Assembly (NCBI RefSeq): GCF_900015215.1
Contig: NZ_LN555523.1
Location: 978,912-1,042,911 of the forward strand
Length of the DNA stretch: 64,000 bases
Direction of reading: 5' to 3'
DNA from: Romboutsia ilealis
Lineage (GTDB): Bacteria; Bacillota; Clostridia; Peptostreptococcales; Peptostreptococcaceae
The notes beneath the pieces are model-generated. The model was given only the letters and a program-made list of their open reading frames with translations. It was not told the DNA's origin and did no database searches. The position numbers and the translations under genes were made by a program. Shown in pieces: positions 9,833 through 63,524 of this stretch (position 1 is the stretch's first letter; each line of letters begins with the position of its first letter).

Positions 9833-9863
9833 GTGCCTTAGATATTTAAGGCACATTTTTTTA
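9833..9863 (+). terminator. Intrinsic terminator of miaB
   Basis: GTGCCTTA (9833-9840) pairs with TAAGGCAC (9847-9854), followed by seven T. The T-tract (9855-9863, ATTTTTTTA) is also the left boundary of a repeat copy. Confidence 0.85.
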
Positions 9864-9974
9864 ATTATTAGAATTTTATAACATATCAAAAACTGCTGAT
9901 AACTTGTGTATGACATATCGTTGGCGAAATAAAGTACTTCGCCGACACCTCGCTCGAGCGAAGCAAATTTTTTA
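9864..9974 (+). repeat. Partial copy of terminator-associated structured repeat
   Basis: The 3' half is clearly related to the 191-bp repeats at 26963 and 58071: GTTGGCGA (9920-9927) and TCGCCGAC (9939-9946) form a hairpin, followed by CACCTCGCTCGAGCGAAGC and T6A. The 5' part (GATAACTTGTGTATG) is shortened and diverged. It is bounded by ATTTTTTTA on the left and ATTTTTTA (9967-9974) on the right. The right T-tract touches the stop codon of the Nudix gene. Confidence 0.75.
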
Positions 9975-22954: not shown

Positions 22955-23151
22955 TTTATGTACCTCCTATTTACTTATATAATCTATTATTTGATAAATT
23001 AAAAAAAATATAATAGGAAGATTTAAGGAAAATTATAGATTATAGATATTATTTAAATTTAATAGATAATAAGTGTATTTTAATAAAATGACAAATTGAA
23101 ACTTTATAATAAAGTTATTAATAAGGTATTACTTAAAGTAAAAAATAATAT

Positions 23152-24287
23152 AATTTAACTCGTTGTGCTAGTTAAATTTTTCAATAATAAAACTCCAACA
23201 AATATAGTATCCTAAGATTATCTCTACTATTCTAAAGGAGGATTATATATGCTAGAGTTTAATAATTATTATATCCAAGATCAAAAAAATTTAACTGATT
23301 TATTTACAAATATATTTGTAATTATAGATGATATATATAATGAGATTATACCTATAACTGTAAGTAATAGACGTAATATAAAAGATAGCAAACTTTCTGA
23401 TAGTGAGATAATCACTATTAGCATAGTTGGTGAACTTTTAACTATTGATTCTGAAAAAGCATTCTTTAGTTTGCTTAAAAGGGAATATAAAAATCTATTT
23501 CCAAAGATAGGAGATAGAACGAGATTCAACAGAACTAAAAGAAACTTATATTGGGTAATATCTAAAATAAGAGAGCATATTTCTTTATTTATGCAATCTT
23601 ATTCTAACAATATAAGAATTGTAGATAGTATGCCTATTCCAGTATGTGAATTTGGTAGAGCACATTTTAGTAAATGCTTTAAAGGCGAAGCCTCTTATGG
23701 TAGATGTCCTTCAAAAAAACAAACTTATTTTGGATTTAAATTTCATGCTCTTACTACAATAGATGGATTTTTATCTGATTATATTATAACTCCAGCTAAT
23801 GTAGATGATAGAAATGCAGTATGGGATTTATGTGATAAATATAAATCTATTTCTATTATTGGTGATAAAGGGTATGTAAATAAAAGGCTAACGCCTGAAC
23901 TGAAAGTTGAAAAGGATATAAATCTATTATTTTTAAAGCGCGGAAATAGTAAAGATAATTATCCCAAAGATATAAGACAATTGATATTTAAAGCTAGAAG
24001 AAGGATAGAAACTAGTTTTTCTCAGTTGGCAGAACAATTAAATTTGAATAAAGTAAAAAGTAAATCAATGTTAGGATTTATAACTAGAACTTCAATAAAA
24101 GTTTTAGCTCATAATATATCATTTCTAATAAACAAATTAATGGGAAATGAAGATTCTATATCTAAAATAAAAAGATTAGTATTTGGATAAAAATTACAAA
24201 TACTAATCTTTCATAGGATATTCTTTTTTGCACAATTTAAATTCCTTTATTTGGAAAAATAATTAACTAGCACAACAGATTAATTTA
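23152..24287 (+). mobile_element. IS982-family insertion sequence
   Basis: The transposase gene at 23249-24190 lies between imperfect terminal inverted repeats: left CGTTGTGCTAGTTAA (23161-23175) and right TTAACTAGCACAACAG (24263-24278). Flanking AT-rich bases (AATTTAACT left, ATTAATTT right) are shared with the mini-element at 34998-35128, so the repeats may extend outward; exact ends are uncertain. The single reading frame is intact, so the element may be active. Confidence 0.85.
23249..24190 (+). CDS. IS982-family transposase
   Basis: 313 aa DDE transposase. The family hallmark IVDSMPIPVCEFGRAHFSK contains the first catalytic Asp; YGRCPSKKQTYFGFKFHALT follows; the second Asp is in IIGDKGYVNKRL; the catalytic Glu is in ARRRIETSFSQL near residue 250. 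RBS AAAGGAGG precedes the ATG. No frameshift is seen. Codon use resembles the host. Confidence 0.93.
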   Translation: MLEFNNYYIQDQKNLTDLFTNIFVIIDDIYNEIIPITVSNRRNIKDSKLSDSEIITISIVGELLTIDSEKAFFSLLKREYKNLFPKIGDRTRFNRTKRNLYWVISKIREHISLFMQSYSNNIRIVDSMPIPVCEFGRAHFSKCFKGEASYGRCPSKKQTYFGFKFHALTTIDGFLSDYIITPANVDDRNAVWDLCDKYKSISIIGDKGYVNKRLTPELKVEKDINLLFLKRGNSKDNYPKDIRQLIFKARRRIETSFSQLAEQLNLNKVKSKSMLGFITRTSIKVLAHNISFLINKLMGNEDSISKIKRLVFG

Positions 24288-24353
24288 ATAGACGTATGAA
24301 AGATACTGTTATATTATATATATAACAAATAAAACAAAAAAGGGGGATTGATT

Positions 24354-26932: not shown

Positions 26933-26962
26933 GCTGAACTTATATAAAGTTCAGCTTTTTTT
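26933..26962 (+). terminator. Intrinsic terminator
   Basis: GCTGAACTT (26933-26941) and AAGTTCAGC (26947-26955) with T7 (26956-26962). The T-run is the left border of the next repeat copy. Confidence 0.85.
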
Positions 26963-27153
26963 ACGCTTAAGGATATTATAATACTTAAAAAAATATGGAT
27001 AACTTCTGAATGTAAGTAATATCAATAAATTGGTTTTGAGCGTACAAAAGATTTTGAAATACTTCGCCCATGTAGTGGCTCAAGTAACGGATGAAGTCGT
27101 TGGTGACATGAAGTGTTTCTCCGACACGTCGCTCGAGCGAAGCGAATTTTTTA
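26963..27153 (+). repeat. Full-length 191-bp terminator-associated structured repeat (copy 1)
   Basis: Begins ACGCTTAAGGATATTATAAT and ends CGAGCGAAGCGAA T6 A. It aligns without gaps to 58071-58261 with about 18 mismatches by eye (about 90% identity). Hairpins: ACTTCG (27061-27066) with TGAAGT (27092-27097) enclosing CCAT/GTGG; GTTGGTGA (27099-27106) with TCTCCGAC (27118-27125); TCGCTCGAGCGA palindrome. The G+C content is well above that of the surrounding intergenic DNA. Confidence 0.9.
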
Positions 27154-33627: not shown

Positions 33628-34026
33628 AAACAAAATGTACAGAATAAATATGTTTATTACTGTGTTGGTATACTGTACTATTGGAAATAGAAGTGAAAAG
33701 CTGCAGTAAAGTTAGTTGATTTAATGGTTTTAAAAATGTAATGAGTAGAGAAGCTGATCTGAAATGATATCTTCTATAGTATTTATGACAATACTTATAA
33801 CTATTATAAATCAAGGTAGTACGACTAAGATGATAGATAAAAAATTATGTGTATTATAAGAAATATACACAGTTATACAGTATAAAAGTCATTACGTGTA
33901 AGTTAGATAATATAGTTAAATTTAAATTTTAAAAATAATATATATATAACGAAATTTATGGTATATTATTATATAAGGTTCCAGTTTATGGGATATAGTA
34001 TTGATAATAATATTATTGTATTAGGA
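33628..34026. other. Intergenic region, no credible gene
   Basis: AT-rich and interrupted by stops in all frames. A 31-codon frame near 33765 (MISSIVFMTILITIINQG...) lacks a ribosome binding site and is probably chance. It may hold remnants of older insertions next to the IS200 element. Confidence 0.5.
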
Positions 34027-34085
34027 ATACCACAGGTTATACCTGTGGTTCTAAAAAGCTTTTAGCTATGAGTAGAAATAAAAAA

Positions 34086-34140
34086 ACCTCCATAAAATTA
34101 TAGTAGGTTTGCCGACCAAAACTATAAAATTTAAGGAGGT
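34086..34140 (+). promoter_or_regulatory. Stem sequestering the tnpA ribosome binding site
   Basis: ACCTCC (34086-34091) complements GGAGGT (34135-34140), extended imperfectly by ATAAAATTATAG and CTATAAAATTTAA. Translational occlusion of tnpA by such a 5' stem is known for IS200 elements; the pairing is visible here. Confidence 0.7.
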
Positions 34141-34150
34141 GTGTCCGATA

Positions 34151-34624
34151 ATGGACAATAATAGTTTAGCACATAGCAAATGGAATTGTAAATATCATAT
34201 AGTTTTTGCACCAAAGTATAGAAGGCAGATTATTTATGGAAAAATAAAGTCTGATATTGGTGTTATATTAAGAAAACTTTGTGATCATAAAGGTGTTGAG
34301 ATAATTGAAGCAAATGCATGTAAAGATCATATACACATGCTTGTAAGTATACCACCAAAACTTAGTGTATCTCAATTTATGGGTTATCTGAAAGGAAAAA
34401 GTTCACTGATGATATTTGATAGACATGCAAATTTAAAGTATAAATATGGAAATAGACAGTTTTGGTGTAAAGGGTATTATGTTGATACAGTTGGAAGAAA
34501 TAAAAAGGCAATTGAAGAATATATAAAAAATCAAATACAAGAGGATATAATTCATGAACAAATGAGTTTAAAGGAATATATTGACCCGTTTACGGGTGAG
34601 CCAGTAAATAAAGCAAAAAAATAA
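34151..34624 (+). CDS. tnpA: IS200/IS605-family Y1 transposase TnpA
   Basis: HUH single-strand transposase: KYHIVFAPKYRR, the metal-binding DHIHMLVSIPP, and the catalytic tyrosine region WCKGYYVDTVG. ATG at 34151 with AAGGAGG at 34133-34139 (157 aa); an upstream in-frame ATG at 34109 lies before the RBS and is rejected. Intact. Confidence 0.93.
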   Translation: MDNNSLAHSKWNCKYHIVFAPKYRRQIIYGKIKSDIGVILRKLCDHKGVEIIEANACKDHIHMLVSIPPKLSVSQFMGYLKGKSSLMIFDRHANLKYKYGNRQFWCKGYYVDTVGRNKKAIEEYIKNQIQEDIIHEQMSLKEYIDPFTGEPVNKAKK

Positions 34625-34748
34625 GCACCTTTAGGTGCAGTTAGTAATAGTATGCGGTTGGCAAACCGTTCAGTGTGCGAGTAGCACAGCCAGAAACAAA
34701 GCCTTATAGGCGTAGAGCAAACCACCCGTTTTACGGGTGGTTCTGATT
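34625..34748 (+). ncRNA. Structured IS200 right-end region, possible omega-RNA-like relic
   Basis: Between tnpA and the right end lie several hairpins: GCACCT/AGGTGC (34625-34638), CGGTT/AACCG near 34656, GCC/GGC around 34701-34711, and the terminal ACCACCCGT/ACGGGTGGT. The stretch is GC-rich for this genome and resembles the 3' ends of IS605-type elements that encode the TnpB guide RNA, yet no tnpB is present. RNA function is inference only. Confidence 0.35.
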
Positions 34749-34997
34749 AAAATTTATTAGACTGTTTATAGGTATACTTATATTATTAATGCAAACTTAG
34801 GATTATCATAATGATATGTACATAACAAAAGGTTAGGAGCTAAAATTGAAATAGCTCTTGATAGGATACAACAGGGTTAGGATTTATGGTAGTGTTATAG
34901 ATATATTTTAGGTCAAAAGATAATTTATAAATTTATAGTAAATGATAGAAACTATATTAAAGTAGGACTAAGTATAGTAAACGTAAAGATTTATAAA

Positions 34998-35128
34998 TTA
35001 ATCTGTTGTGCTAGTTATTTTACTACACATATTGAAATTACTATATAAAGCTTTTGAACTATAAAAATATAATTTACTAGGCTCTAGTATTTTCAATAAT
35101 CATATTTAACTAGCACAACGAGTTAAAT
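34998..35128 (-). mobile_element. IS982-derived miniature element (no transposase)
   Basis: CTGTTGTGCTAGTTA (35003-35017) and TTTAACTAGCACAACGAG (35105-35122) are the two ends of the IS982 element at 23.2-24.3 kb, in opposite orientation, including adjoining bases (TTAAT and GTTAAATTA). Only about 85 bp of unrelated AT-rich sequence lies between, without coding potential. Confidence 0.75.
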
Positions 35129-35310
35129 TAATAAATAGATATTATTTTAGAATATTAACATTATATTTAAAATAATAGTATATAAAAATACTTTGGAAAT
35201 AGACTAGATTTAAATTAAGGTTAGGAGAAATATATATGTTAATAAAGTGAATTATATATATTTTTTTGGATAATTTAAAACTATATAACTAAATATATGG
35301 AGGACGTAAT

Positions 35311-43475: not shown

Positions 43476-45854
43476 ATGGGAGCTTGTAGTATGAGTAAAA
43501 AAGAGATAATACTCGGTGGTCTAAACTGTGCTCATTGTGCAGAAGTCATTAATGAAAAAGTATCTAAATTAGAAGAAATAGAATATTGTAACTTAAATTT
43601 TATAAATAAAAAACTAACTTTAGAAATAGCTTGTGATTCAAATATAGATGAAGATTTAGTTATAAAAAAAGTAATTAAAATGATAAATGATATAGAACCA
43701 GGGCTTGATATAAAAGTATTAAGAGATGAAAAAATAAACAATAAAAAAGTTGAAATAGCATTAGGTGGATTAAATTGTGCTCATTGTGGAGAAGAAATAG
43801 GAAATAAAGTATCAAAATTAGATAATGTAATACAATCTAACTTAAATTTTATAAGTAAAAAGCTTACGTTTGAAGTAGCTAAAAACGTAGATGAGAAATT
43901 AGTTACAGAGGAAATTATAAAGATAATAAATGATACAGAACCAGGACTTGATATAAAGGTTAGCTTTTCAGATACAAAAACAAAAAAGGAAAATAAAGAA
44001 GAAGTTGAAATTTCAAATAAAGGTGACTTAATAAAATTAATTATAGGTAGTATAATGTATATCTTTGGAATATTTCAAACTGCAACTGGATTTGAAAGCA
44101 AGTTTGCTAATATAGTATTTTTAATGGTTTATTTAATAGTAGGTTATGATGTATTATTAAAAGCCTTAAAAAATGCATCAAAAGGTAGAGTATTTGATGA
44201 AAACTTCTTAATGTCTATAGCAACAGTAGGAGCTGTTATAATAGGAGAAGTACCAGAAGCAGTAGGAGTTATGCTTTTTTATAAGATTGGTGAATACTTA
44301 CAAGATATAGCAGTAGGAAAATCTAGAAAATCAATAACTTCACTTATGCAAATAAGACCAGATTCTGCTAACTTAAAAGTTGGATCAGAAATAAAAGTAG
44401 TTTCTCCAGAAGAAGTAAGCATTGGAGATATAATAGTTGTAAAGCCAGGTGAAAAAATACCTCTAGATGGAGTAGTAGTAGATGGTTTTTCAATGGTTGA
44501 TACCTCAGCACTTACAGGAGAATCCGTTCTTAGAGAAATAGGTGTAGGAGAGTCTGCATTATCAGGATTTATAAATAAAAATGCATTATTAACAATAGAA
44601 GTAACTAAAGAGTTTGGAGAATCAACAGTTTCAAAAATACTTGACTTAGTTGAAAATGCAAGTAGTAAAAAATCTAAAACAGAAAACTTTATAAGTAAGT
44701 TTGCAAAATACTATACACCATTTGTATTAATTTCTGCTATGGTAATAGCATTTATACCACCACTAGTAGTACCTAATGCTGAATTTTTAGATTGGTTTTA
44801 TAGAGGACTAGTATTTTTAGTTGTTTCTTGCCCTTGTGCCTTAGTTTTATCAATACCATTATCATTTTTTAGTGGAATTGGTAACTCATCTAAACATGGG
44901 ATATTAATAAAGGGAAGTAACTATTTAGAAGCACTTAAAAATGTAGATACAGTAGTATTTGATAAAACTGGTACACTTACAAAAGGTGTATTTAAAGTAA
45001 CAAAAGTATCACCTGTTGGAATAAGTGAAAAAGAATTAATAGAATATGCTGCATATGCAGAAGCAAATTCAAACCATCCAATAGCAAAATCTATAGTAAA
45101 TTACTATAAAGAAAGTATAGACTTAGAAAAAATAACATACTTTGAAGAAATAGCAGCACATGGGATAAAAGTAAAATATAACGATTTACACATATTGGCT
45201 GGTAATGATAAGCTAATGAGCAGTGAAAATATATTATATTTCCCAACTGATGATATAGGAACAGTAGTTTATATAGCAGTTAATGGAGCTTATAGAGGAT
45301 ATATAGTAATATCTGATGAAATAAAAGAAGATAGTAAAGAAGCTATAAAAAACTTAAAATTAAGTGGCGTTAAAGAAGTTGTAATGTTAACAGGAGACAA
45401 TGAAAAGGTAGCAAATAAAATTGCTAATGAACTAGGAATAGATAAAGTTTATTCAAACTTATTACCTAATGAAAAAGTTGATAGATTAGAAGACATATTT
45501 AAAGAAAAATTACCAAAAGAAAAAGTTGCATTTGTTGGAGATGGTATAAATGATGCTCCAGTACTTGCAAGAGCAGATGTTGGTATAGCAATGGGAGCAT
45601 TAGGGTCAGATGCAGCAATAGAGGCAGCTGATGTAGTTTTAATGACTGATGAACCAAGTAAAATTGCTAAAGCAATAGAAATATCAAGAAAGACAAATAA
45701 AATAGTATGGCAAAATATTGTATTTGCATTAGGGGTTAAGGCGATAGTATTAATACTAAGTGCAGGTGGTGTAGCTACTATGTGGGAAGCAATATTTGCA
45801 GATGTAGGAGTTGCTTTAATAGCAGTATTAAATGCAATGAGAGTTATGAAATAA
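43476..45854 (+). CDS. P1B-type heavy-metal-exporting ATPase (CadA/ZntA-like) with two HMA domains
   Basis: 792 aa. Two N-terminal heavy-metal-associated domains, each with GGLNCAHC (residues about 10 and 90), are followed by eight membrane helices. Landmarks: TGES actuator loop, ion-binding SCPCALVLSIP, phosphorylation site DKTGTLTKG, HP in SNHPIAKS and GDGINDAPVLARADVG. Exports Zn2+, Cd2+ or Pb2+ by family. Duplicated HMA domains are similar to each other. RBS AGGAG, ATG 43476. Confidence 0.94.
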   Translation: MGACSMSKKEIILGGLNCAHCAEVINEKVSKLEEIEYCNLNFINKKLTLEIACDSNIDEDLVIKKVIKMINDIEPGLDIKVLRDEKINNKKVEIALGGLNCAHCGEEIGNKVSKLDNVIQSNLNFISKKLTFEVAKNVDEKLVTEEIIKIINDTEPGLDIKVSFSDTKTKKENKEEVEISNKGDLIKLIIGSIMYIFGIFQTATGFESKFANIVFLMVYLIVGYDVLLKALKNASKGRVFDENFLMSIATVGAVIIGEVPEAVGVMLFYKIGEYLQDIAVGKSRKSITSLMQIRPDSANLKVGSEIKVVSPEEVSIGDIIVVKPGEKIPLDGVVVDGFSMVDTSALTGESVLREIGVGESALSGFINKNALLTIEVTKEFGESTVSKILDLVENASSKKSKTENFISKFAKYYTPFVLISAMVIAFIPPLVVPNAEFLDWFYRGLVFLVVSCPCALVLSIPLSFFSGIGNSSKHGILIKGSNYLEALKNVDTVVFDKTGTLTKGVFKVTKVSPVGISEKELIEYAAYAEANSNHPIAKSIVNYYKESIDLEKITYFEEIAAHGIKVKYNDLHILAGNDKLMSSENILYFPTDDIGTVVYIAVNGAYRGYIVISDEIKEDSKEAIKNLKLSGVKEVVMLTGDNEKVANKIANELGIDKVYSNLLPNEKVDRLEDIFKEKLPKEKVAFVGDGINDAPVLARADVGIAMGALGSDAAIEAADVVLMTDEPSKIAKAIEISRKTNKIVWQNIVFALGVKAIVLILSAGGVATMWEAIFADVGVALIAVLNAMRVMK

Positions 45855-46994: not shown

Positions 46995-47434
46995 CTCCTT
47001 ATTAAAAAAATTTAAAATTATATTACTAAAAAATTCACTTTTACGAAGTATCGTATAGATAATATTTTAAGTAACAAATATATAAATTTATAATTATGAT
47101 ATATTGTTTTTAATATAAAATGCTTCAACGATACATCCCTTAGGTAAAGTAAATTTTTTTGTATGAGAAGTATTGTAGCATAAAAAAATATTGAGTAAAA
47201 CAAAAATTTTTACAATCAAAATAAATAAGATTTACAAAAAATATTTGTAGCTAAAATGTTGACATTAAGCCAAAGTAGTCTTAACATTATCGCATCGGTC
47301 AACCGAACGGCTGATAAAATCTAGAAAATAAATTTTAAAAAAGTGATTGACTTTTTATTTTGAATAGAATATATTTTGAGTATCAAAACAAAACTTTGGC
47401 AACAAAGATATTTGTAAGAGATAAGGAGAAAAGT
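46995..47434. other. Divergent regulatory region before the fab cluster
   Basis: No gene. It contains a possible promoter TTGACA (47259-47264) with TAACAT (47282-47287), a GC-rich palindrome TCGGTCAACCGA (47295-47306), and the main fabH promoter and FabT-like box at 47347-47388. Confidence 0.6.
47347..47388 (+). promoter_or_regulatory. fabH promoter with FabT-like operator
   Basis: TTGACT (47347-47352), 17-nt spacer, TATATT (47370-47375). The palindrome TTTTGAGTATCAAAA (47374-47388) overlaps the -10 and start site and matches the TTTGA-N3-TCAAA core of FabT boxes known from streptococci. The putative regulator is encoded at 56863. Confidence 0.7.
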
Positions 47435-57571: not shown

Positions 57572-58027
57572 ATGAGAAAAAAATTTTTTATAGTATTAAC
57601 TATAGTATGGATGGGGGTAATATTTTATATGTCTAATCAATCAGCATCAATATCATCTATGCATTCTGGAAATACAATAAATATTATAAGTAAATTGCCA
57701 TTAATAGGTAATATTATGGATTACCTTACAAGTATTAATATAGGAGAATTTATAGTAAGAAAATGCGCTCATATGACTTCATATTGCATTTTAGCAATAC
57801 TTTTATTTATGTCGGTATATGAAAATGATATAAAAAAAACAGTAATAATTTCATTTTTAGGAACATTTTTATATGCATGTAGTGACGAATTTCATCAATT
57901 ATTCATATATGGAAGAAGCGGTGAGTTTAGAGATGTAATGATAGATTCTACTGGAGGAATTATAGGTCTATTACTTATTATTTTTATAGTAAAATATAAA
58001 CAAATTAATAAGAAAATTGAAAAATAG
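57572..58027 (+). CDS. VanZ family membrane protein
   Basis: 151 aa, four hydrophobic segments. The VanZ pattern includes MGVIFYMSNQSA near the N-terminus, RKCAHMTSYCILAILLF, and CSDEFHQLFIYGRSGEFRDV followed by DSTGGIIG. VanZ gives low-level teicoplanin resistance in Tn1546, but most chromosomal homologues have unknown roles. RBS AGAGGG precedes the ATG; a terminator follows. Confidence 0.92.
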   Translation: MRKKFFIVLTIVWMGVIFYMSNQSASISSMHSGNTINIISKLPLIGNIMDYLTSINIGEFIVRKCAHMTSYCILAILLFMSVYENDIKKTVIISFLGTFLYACSDEFHQLFIYGRSGEFRDVMIDSTGGIIGLLLIIFIVKYKQINKKIEK

Positions 58028-58070
58028 CAATATATTGCATTGTAATAGATGCAGTGTATTGCTATTTTTT
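58024..58070 (+). terminator. Intrinsic terminator of vanZ-like gene
   Basis: ATAGCAATATATTGCAT (58024-58040) and ATGCAGTGTATTGCTAT (58049-58065), then T6. The T-run borders repeat copy 2. Confidence 0.88.
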
Positions 58071-58261
58071 ACGCTTGAGGATATTATAATACTTAAAAAA
58101 ATGTGGATAAATTCTGAATGTAAGTAATATTAATAAATTGGTTTTGAGCATAAAAAAGATTTTGGAATACTTCGCCCACGCAGTGGCTCAAGCAACAGAC
58201 GAAGTCGTTAGCGACATGAAGGGTTTCGCTGACACGTCGCTCAAGCGAAGCGAATTTTTTA
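58071..58261 (+). repeat. Full-length 191-bp terminator-associated structured repeat (copy 2)
   Basis: Begins ACGCTTGAGGATATTATAAT and ends CAAGCGAAGCGAA T6 A. Flanked by ATTTTTTA on both sides (58064-58071 and 58254-58261). Hairpins: ACTTCG (58169-58174) with CGAAGT (58200-58205) enclosing CCAC/GTGG; GTTAGCGA (58207-58214) with TCGCTGAC (58226-58233); TCGCT/AGCGA. Interior G+C is far above the local average. Confidence 0.9.
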
Positions 58262-63454: not shown

Positions 63455-63477
63455 AGAGAGTTAATACTCTCTTTTTT
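63455..63477 (+). terminator. Intrinsic terminator
   Basis: AGAGAGT (63455-63461) and ACTCTCT (63466-63472), then T6 up to 63477, directly followed by a truncated repeat copy. Confidence 0.85.
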
Positions 63478-63524
63478 ACGCTTAAGGATATTATAATACT
63501 TAAAAATATAAGTAATATTAACAT
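63478..63524 (+). repeat. Truncated 5' copy of terminator-associated repeat
   Basis: ACGCTTAAGGATATTATAAT plus ACTTAAAAATA is identical to the start of copy 1, then AAGTAATATTAACA; the hairpin-bearing 3' half is absent. Confidence 0.8.

Follow-up and report, generated by a model that had tools for sequence, protein, structure and literature searches.

A folded, modular repeat behind intrinsic terminators of Romboutsia ilealis and its relatives, with a possible single-strand route of insertion

According to the excerpted text of PMC7290912 and PMC6006769, elements of the IS200/IS605 group have neither inverted repeats nor target duplications; they integrate 3′ of an oligonucleotide that is short and fixed, with a preference for the lagging-strand template. 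One lineage study of IS605 saw no preference for the leading or the lagging strand (PMC7290912). The repeat of Romboutsia ilealis described here resembles these elements and the non-autonomous PATEs, as far as the excerpts characterise them, in having no terminal inverted repeats, a short fixed oligonucleotide 5′ of the insertion, hairpins inside the ends and a bias towards the lagging-strand template; with the IS200 resident in R. ilealis it also has the terminator T-run in common as a target. It differs from an IS200/IS605 PATE in that its ends are not those of the resident IS200 and in that 10 of 11 repeat-rich genomes hold no intact Y1_Tnp. The repeat works like an IS200/IS605-like single-strand non-autonomous element, and its membership of that group fails on shared ends and on the presence of a transposase.

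Other described repeats share single traits with it. BOX of Streptococcus pneumoniae is likewise composed of a 5′ part, optional internal modules and a 3′ part, and is folded, intergenic and present in many copies; in the sections of PMC3049150 that describe it, BOX has terminal inverted repeats and target duplications, whereas the present repeat has neither and targets a terminator T-run (the two were compared by description and not by sequence). BOX mirrors the coding bias, with 60.8% on the leading strand in those sections, whereas our repeat exceeds it (89 of 92 against 82.6%). SPRITE of S. pneumoniae also has a T-rich 3′ part and an association with terminators, but in the account of PMC3049150, as far as it goes, is itself terminator-like, with an 18-bp duplex and AAAA/TTTT ends, whereas the repeat sits behind the terminator of another gene. 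Group IIC introns recognise a terminator stem-loop followed by T; the relevant part of PMC7161350 presents them as ribozymes with a reverse transcriptase, whereas the repeat has no Rfam match and no RVT_1 was found in four Romboutsia genomes. REP/BIME sequences with their RAYT transposases are also high-copy intergenic palindromic repeats, but here the Y1-type transposase is missing from most repeat-rich genomes. A description of the repeat was not found in the openly licensed PMC literature, including by searches with the element's own sequence strings.

Anatomy, copies and range of the repeat

The window, by which we mean the whole 64-kb stretch of R. ilealis DNA that was analysed, holds several copies of a short, non-coding, modular DNA repeat, mostly 140–195 bp in length, that consists of domain I and domain II in the consensus order T6-ACGCTTAAGG...TTGAGCGTAAAAAAGA-TTTTGA-(module A)-AGC...TGA-(module B)-AGCGAAGCGAA-T6. 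Domain I is closed by TTTTTTACGCTTAA/TTGAGCGTAAAAAA, so that the T-run of the insertion site is itself part of the helix, and in domain II TTGAGC/GCTCAA closes a three-way junction. Folded structures lie near both ends of the element, and the exact ends, T6-ACGC and GCGAA-T6, show on reading no inverted-repeat relation. A sequence-only reading of the window had placed covarying hairpins at 27061–27146; the stems are real, but that interval is only a fragment of a larger element at 26963–27152 (the 27k copy), and the 8-bp stem named there is one arm of the domain II junction. The parts of this copy and of the others in the window are as follows.

26933–26955, + strand: intrinsic-terminator hairpin of the upstream gene, GCTGAACT...AGTTCAGC, read directly and lying immediately 5′ of the T-run
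26956–26962, + strand: terminator T-run, the target that holds the 27k copy; in R. timonensis (G003) and in G002 the hairpin and T-run stand without the element
26963–27152, + strand: the 27k copy, a full element with modules A and B both present; match to RNA model R1 at 27077–27152
26957–27049, + strand: domain I of the 27k copy, with the closing helix TTTTTTACGCTTAA (26957–26970) / TTGAGCGTACAAAA (27036–27049)
27052–27152, + strand: domain II of the 27k copy, from TTTTGA through the 3′ T-run (27147–27152), with a structure that covaries
27058–27082, + strand: module A, 25 nt, kept or cleanly absent elsewhere by comparison of copies
27099–27125, + strand: the previously named 8-bp stem (27099–27106 / 27118–27125), with a T·T mismatch at 27104/27120
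27112–27135, + strand: module B, 24 nt, kept or cleanly absent elsewhere by comparison of copies
58024–58064, + strand: hairpin 5′ of the T-run of the 58k copy, read directly
58065–58260, + strand: T-run (58065–58070) and the 58k copy (58071–58260), full and with modules A and B; stem at 58207–58214 / 58226–58233
9856–9973, + strand: T-run (9856–9862) after a terminator hairpin and the older 9.9k copy (9863–9973); match to RNA model R1 at 9901–9973
63472–63510, + strand: T-run and 5′ end of a decayed copy, from pattern and sequence match
47104–47160, + strand: possible decayed 3′ part of a copy (weak), 65% to the 9.9k copy, with no RNA model match

The A-run of the domain I helix is interrupted by one C in the 27k copy, and the 9.9k copy, with its stem at 9920–9927 / 9939–9946, has a 5′ part unlike that of the other copies. 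Across the R. ilealis genome, 92 5′ ends (26-base pattern with up to 3 mismatches) and 77 3′ ends (25-base pattern) were found, and the reversed-pattern controls for both found 0 places; BLAST of the 27k region against the 2.59-Mb genome gave at least 41 matches (40 of 168 candidates scored). Among 60 R. ilealis copies, namely the fetched loci with both ends recognised that also served for the hairpin and locus comparisons below, 35 carry both modules, 18 carry neither, four have only module A and three have only module B. Two insertions common to both species contain module A in R. ilealis but lack it in R. timonensis (L073 and the second copy in L056), and modules are therefore lost, gained or converted in place. 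Copies that consist of domain II only were seen by eye directly behind terminators, both in R. ilealis (L259, L260) and in other genera (L184, L186, L201). The R. ilealis copies with both modules form a star, with a mean pairwise identity of 0.947 and a best pair of 0.995. The repeat is apparently an old family with fairly recent insertions.

For R. ilealis, we rejected an autonomous version in which a reading frame would separate the two domains, because 43 of 46 paired ends in this genome lie only 140–218 bases apart; of the three wider spacings, those of 2345 and 2934 arise from short copies matched with another 3′ end, and that of 1112 from a copy carrying an insertion with a reading frame. 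At ~1.8405–1.8416 Mb (L070 / L114), a repeat copy is split by ~0.9 kb with a transposase-like reading frame, which we take to be that of an IS630-type transposase. Near 444.2 kb (L239), the last 3′ bases of the repeat adjoin an apparent tRNA gene ending CCGCACCA, and in Paraclostridium ghonii (L019, L021, L024 and L036) domain II has an extra nested module repeating TTTGAGTAACGG inside the junction.

Domain I also contains a 9-mer, TGTGGATAA, ~35–36 nt from the T-run, in other genera too (alignment A2), which is presumably DnaA-box-like. It is perfect in 53 of 81 R. ilealis copies and within one mismatch in 69, compared with 5 and 101, respectively, of 4000 random 95-mers; among 19 domain I sequences, seven have it perfect and 14 within one mismatch. 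Elsewhere in the window, a 129-nt direct duplication with 74% identity (43503–43631 and 43752–43880) lies inside a 792-aa ORF at 43476–45854.

Matches to the domain II model occur in 29 of 71 Peptostreptococcaceae genomes and in 12 of 23 genera (in the per-genome counts across these 71, a count of 68 means at least 68). All 26 positives in an order-wide sample of 247 genomes belong to the Peptostreptococcaceae, under stricter filters that may miss weak relatives. The plasmid and phage collections gave no match to the repeat. No Rfam family, the group II intron included, reached its gathering score in the window, and a permissive Rfam search with the 27k copy returned nine matches, all under gathering scores and at chance level.

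Covariation of the fold

According to the sequence-only reading, three copies form the same 8-bp stem, and a two-sided change at its fourth pair points to selection. All six arms and their coordinates are correct and A58210–T58230 does take the place of G–C on the letters, but the 27k stem is broken at its sixth pair, T27104·T27120. The TCGCT/AGCGA stem, described there as kept, is invariant in a 10-sequence alignment (A1, 10 of 21 domain II sequences) whose members were picked by a 24-base pattern containing that very stem, which makes its invariance uninformative. In 38 R. ilealis copies with module B (a further two were excluded because of gaps), the stem is unchanged in 25, and two, the 58k copy and L064, have a two-sided compensated pair, against 0.13 expected from 2000 shuffles (P 0.0035); the broken pairs in these 38 copies are at chance level (6 vs 6.2). 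Considered by itself in 39 domain II sequences, the 8-bp stem shows three pairs and four cells changed on both sides (28/500 and 9/500 shuffles, respectively), its covariation score of 0.078 was reached by 43 of 500 shuffles, and a shift of the partner by +2 columns raises the score to 0.143. Taken alone, the covariation of this stem is only suggestive.

Domain II as a whole (20 pairs in 39 MAFFT-aligned sequences) has nine pairs and 13 cells with two-sided changes against 3.0 and 3.6 in shuffles, and both counts were reached in 0 of 500; in a model-fitted alignment of 52 distinct rows there are 11 pairs and 25 cells against 5.3 and 7.0. In the closing helix of domain I, 90.6% of the cells in 19 sequences are paired, and four pairs and eight cells are changed on both sides. 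The shuffles gave 1.6 such pairs, 7 of 500 being as high, and 2.3 such cells, 0 of 500 being as high, while further pair types in this helix show no excess over shuffles (311/500). Both the whole of domain II and the domain I helix also beat nearly all slid versions, and all of the shuffle controls ignore relatedness among the sequences. The domain II alignment (A4) comprised 38 of 56 RNA model matches together with L031, whose coordinates are two bases off; the 18 omitted matches were four of repeated place or sequence, 11 with long inserts and three that were degenerate or near-duplicate, and the closing helix of two full-length window rows was read inside module A. The domain I alignment (A2) comprised 18 of 21 non-R. 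ilealis sequences and one R. ilealis copy, and left out the near-duplicates L031 and L033 and also L032, which is without the 3′ arm; L010 was entered with six T, against five at the locus, which gives one extra unpaired cell. G·U cells outnumber A·C cells by 35 to 17 in domain II and stand at 5 to 5 in domain I, in counts that ignore relatedness. The G·U excess in domain II would be compatible with a fold formed by this strand, whether as RNA or as single-stranded DNA.

That the paired changes are chance or inherited variants, with no structure selected, would agree with the weakness of the 8-bp stem on its own, with broken pairs that are not avoided in R. ilealis copies and with the domain I pair types that do not exceed shuffles (311/500). 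This reading is highly improbable in view of the two-sided cells of domain II and of the domain I helix, which stand above shuffles (0/500) and above nearly all slid versions. With covariation that is family-wide and broken pairs at chance level, the fold is conserved in the family as a whole, whereas individual resident copies degrade in the way of ordinary repeats. To judge from the alignments, the secondary structure is a selected one at the level of the family, that is, across genera and for the larger structure; the earlier proposal of selection does not extend to the named stem alone or to the state of the R. ilealis copies.

Target site and orientation relative to replication

A hairpin of −5 kcal/mol or lower abuts the T-run in 48 of the 60 R. 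ilealis insertions, compared with 6.8% of 600 random T-runs (runs of at least five T). The 12 insertions without a scored hairpin include some that by eye resemble terminators with long or imperfect stems. Insertions sit 3′ of the T-run, some of them with only T4 in the 5′ flank (e.g. L107). In other records, which include R. timonensis, an uncultured Romboutsia, P. ghonii and Terrisporobacter petrolearius, 31 elements were scored on the best T-run in range, and 20 of them have such a hairpin there; choosing the best run biases this count upward.

The locus of the 27k copy is cleanly empty in R. timonensis (G003), where it reads hairpin-TTTTTT-AGTTTAATT, and no element is present at this locus in G002. 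Of 10 loci with both flanks in the G003 stretches, one is clean and empty, three have an element at the same T-run and six are not clean, one of these six holding a different, older element at that T-run. There is no target duplication beyond the T-run motif, and T6 on both sides is indistinguishable from a T6 duplication. Another repeat, TAATTTAACTCGTTGTGCTAGTTAAAT with its inverse, occurs in the window at 23151–23177, 24259–24290, 34994–35020 and 35102–35133, and a stretch similar to it is located at an empty site in G003.

In R. ilealis, the copies change strand at dnaA, at 2.467 Mb. With dnaA as the origin, the terminus assumed opposite and leading/lagging counts read from strand lists, 89 of 92 5′ ends and 74 of 77 3′ ends are co-oriented with replication; one exception, the 5′ end at 821830 (L048), is one base different from an inverted neighbour less than 2 kb away. 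ORFs of at least 150 aa are co-oriented with replication in 82.6% of cases (window plus 380 kb of G003), and terminator-like sites in 58%, with 80 co-oriented and 57 opposite in G003 and 12 and 7, respectively, in the window. The binomial P of at least 89/92 is 1.8e-5 at 0.82, the value for ORFs, and 8.6e-18 at 0.58, that for terminator-like sites. In the 380-kb stretch of G003, all eight 5′ ends are in the leading orientation. The main contig of G003 has 40 matches, and by their listed strands 35 or 36 of them obey the same strand switch, the origin being on another contig. For a gene on the leading strand, the coding strand is the lagging-strand template, and the T-run and hairpin therefore lie in the strand that is exposed at the fork. 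The upstream gene is co-directional with the repeat at 31 of 35 classified loci, so the direction of transcription may contribute to the orientation bias.

These features bear on two alternatives. A miniature element (MITE) mobilised by a DDE transposase with a T6 target duplication would, like the repeat, be small, AT-rich and repeated, with a T-run on either side; because the ends T6-ACGC and GCGAA-T6 do not form an inverted repeat, and because symmetric duplex insertion would not be expected to favour a single orientation with respect to the T-run and replication, we regard it as the least probable of the readings weighed here. Under the other alternative, the repeat is a retained functional RNA, such as a transcript 3′-end structure, a terminator back-up or a small RNA, with the fold selected for its role in RNA. 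The covarying structure and the sense orientation behind the upstream gene at 31 of 35 loci would both be expected of such an RNA, but the R. ilealis copies decay in a star-like manner with the stem broken as often as chance, the two close species differ in their insertions and the modules vary freely, which makes it quite improbable. The structure most likely serves mobility in single-stranded DNA rather than a function in the transcript, as suggested by insertion at T-runs, by the clean empty site and by an orientation that follows replication in nearly all copies.

Candidate movers and routes of insertion

R. ilealis has four near-identical IS200 copies, one of them in the window (~34013–34750) and the others at L120, L121 and L122. 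Three of the four start no more than 3 nt from a T-run behind a terminator hairpin (by eye), which indicates that a Y1 enzyme in the R. ilealis genome uses such targets, and all four share the replication orientation of the repeat. The sequence behind the IS200 at L121 resembles the start of domain I. Comparison of the four R. ilealis copies led us to reject the resident IS200 as a direct parent, since its ends do not match those of the repeat.

Of the 71 family genomes, 29 contain the repeat and 42 do not; Y1_Tnp is found in 15 of the former and 22 of the latter, indicating no association, and of the 11 repeat-rich genomes (at least 13 matches) eight are without it, two contain only fragments and one, R. 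ilealis, has it intact. IS110 (DEDD transposase) gave no match in seven of nine repeat-positive genomes, R. ilealis among the seven; the matches found were six copies in G003 and one fragment below the cut-off in G069. RVT_1 was not found in any of four Romboutsia genomes, two of which are repeat-rich and ~99% complete or better (G002 is 83% complete), and occurs once each in the genomes of L011 and L014. From these patterns, the mover is either unaccounted for, lost or the replication machinery of the host.

The RVT_1 result also weighs on a retroelement, in which an RNA ending in U6 would anneal to the A6 strand of the target and be reverse transcribed there, in the manner of group IIC introns. 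Such a route would produce the terminator target and the T-run at both ends, and group IIC introns do recognise terminator stem-loop targets (in the relevant part of PMC7161350); with RVT_1 absent from the four Romboutsia genomes and neither a group II intron nor another Rfam family at gathering score in the window, we consider it very improbable.

The explanation that we favour, with about even confidence, is that the hairpins belong to a modular mobile element that is non-coding and non-autonomous and inserts via single-stranded DNA on the lagging-strand template, with the fold serving mobility. During replication, the terminator hairpin and T-run of the coding strand would be exposed in single-stranded form on the lagging-strand template; there the element, as a folded single strand, would be joined 3′ of the T-run, as in single-strand transposition of the IS200/IS605 type. 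The 5′ closing helix of the element would be formed by the T-run junction paired with the internal A-run, and if the element is the mobile strand joined at the T-run, the selected structure would be its recognition fold. The ends, unlike those of IS200, and the occurrence of intact Y1_Tnp in only one of 11 repeat-rich genomes count against this explanation, as do the finding that only one of 10 comparable loci is clean and empty, the 12 of 60 insertions without a scored hairpin, the co-directional upstream gene at 31 of 35 loci and the IS605 lineage study that saw no strand preference.

Enzyme-free copying by template switching, which we judge unlikely but a serious rival, would do without a transposase. 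The lagging-strand polymerase would copy the T-run into A6 and stall at the terminator hairpin, the nascent A6 end would re-anneal to the 3′ T-run of an element elsewhere, and synthesis would proceed back to the donor's own terminator, stall there with an A6 end and rejoin the first T-run. This scheme accounts for the hairpin target, for the T-run at either end of the element and for its orientation relative to replication, and it fits the 10 of 11 repeat-rich genomes without intact Y1_Tnp, the lack of RVT_1 in the four Romboutsia genomes and the lack of IS110 in seven of nine genomes; units also begin at internal T-runs, as in the domain-II-only copies directly behind terminators. However, template switching would be expected to multiply whatever lies between two T-runs, whereas a single family dominates, and template switching alone does not explain the conservation of the fold across 12 genera. 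A fuller version, which seems to us unlikely, is that a family-wide repeat spreads without a dedicated transposase, an A6 nascent end copying a T-run-flanked hairpin cassette by two template switches at terminator stalls, with the conserved fold, and perhaps the DnaA-box-like 9-mer, aiding the copying. If this were true, intrinsic terminators would be the landing pads of a replication-driven, enzyme-free mobile element.

The repeat is unusually strict in its target, the T-run of intrinsic terminators, its orientation bias goes further than that of the genes, and the obvious enzymes are mostly absent from its clade. It raises the question of whether terminator hairpins on the lagging-strand template can capture DNA, and with which protein. 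It also carries a warning for these genomes, in which hairpins behind terminators resemble transcript regulators but may be insertions.
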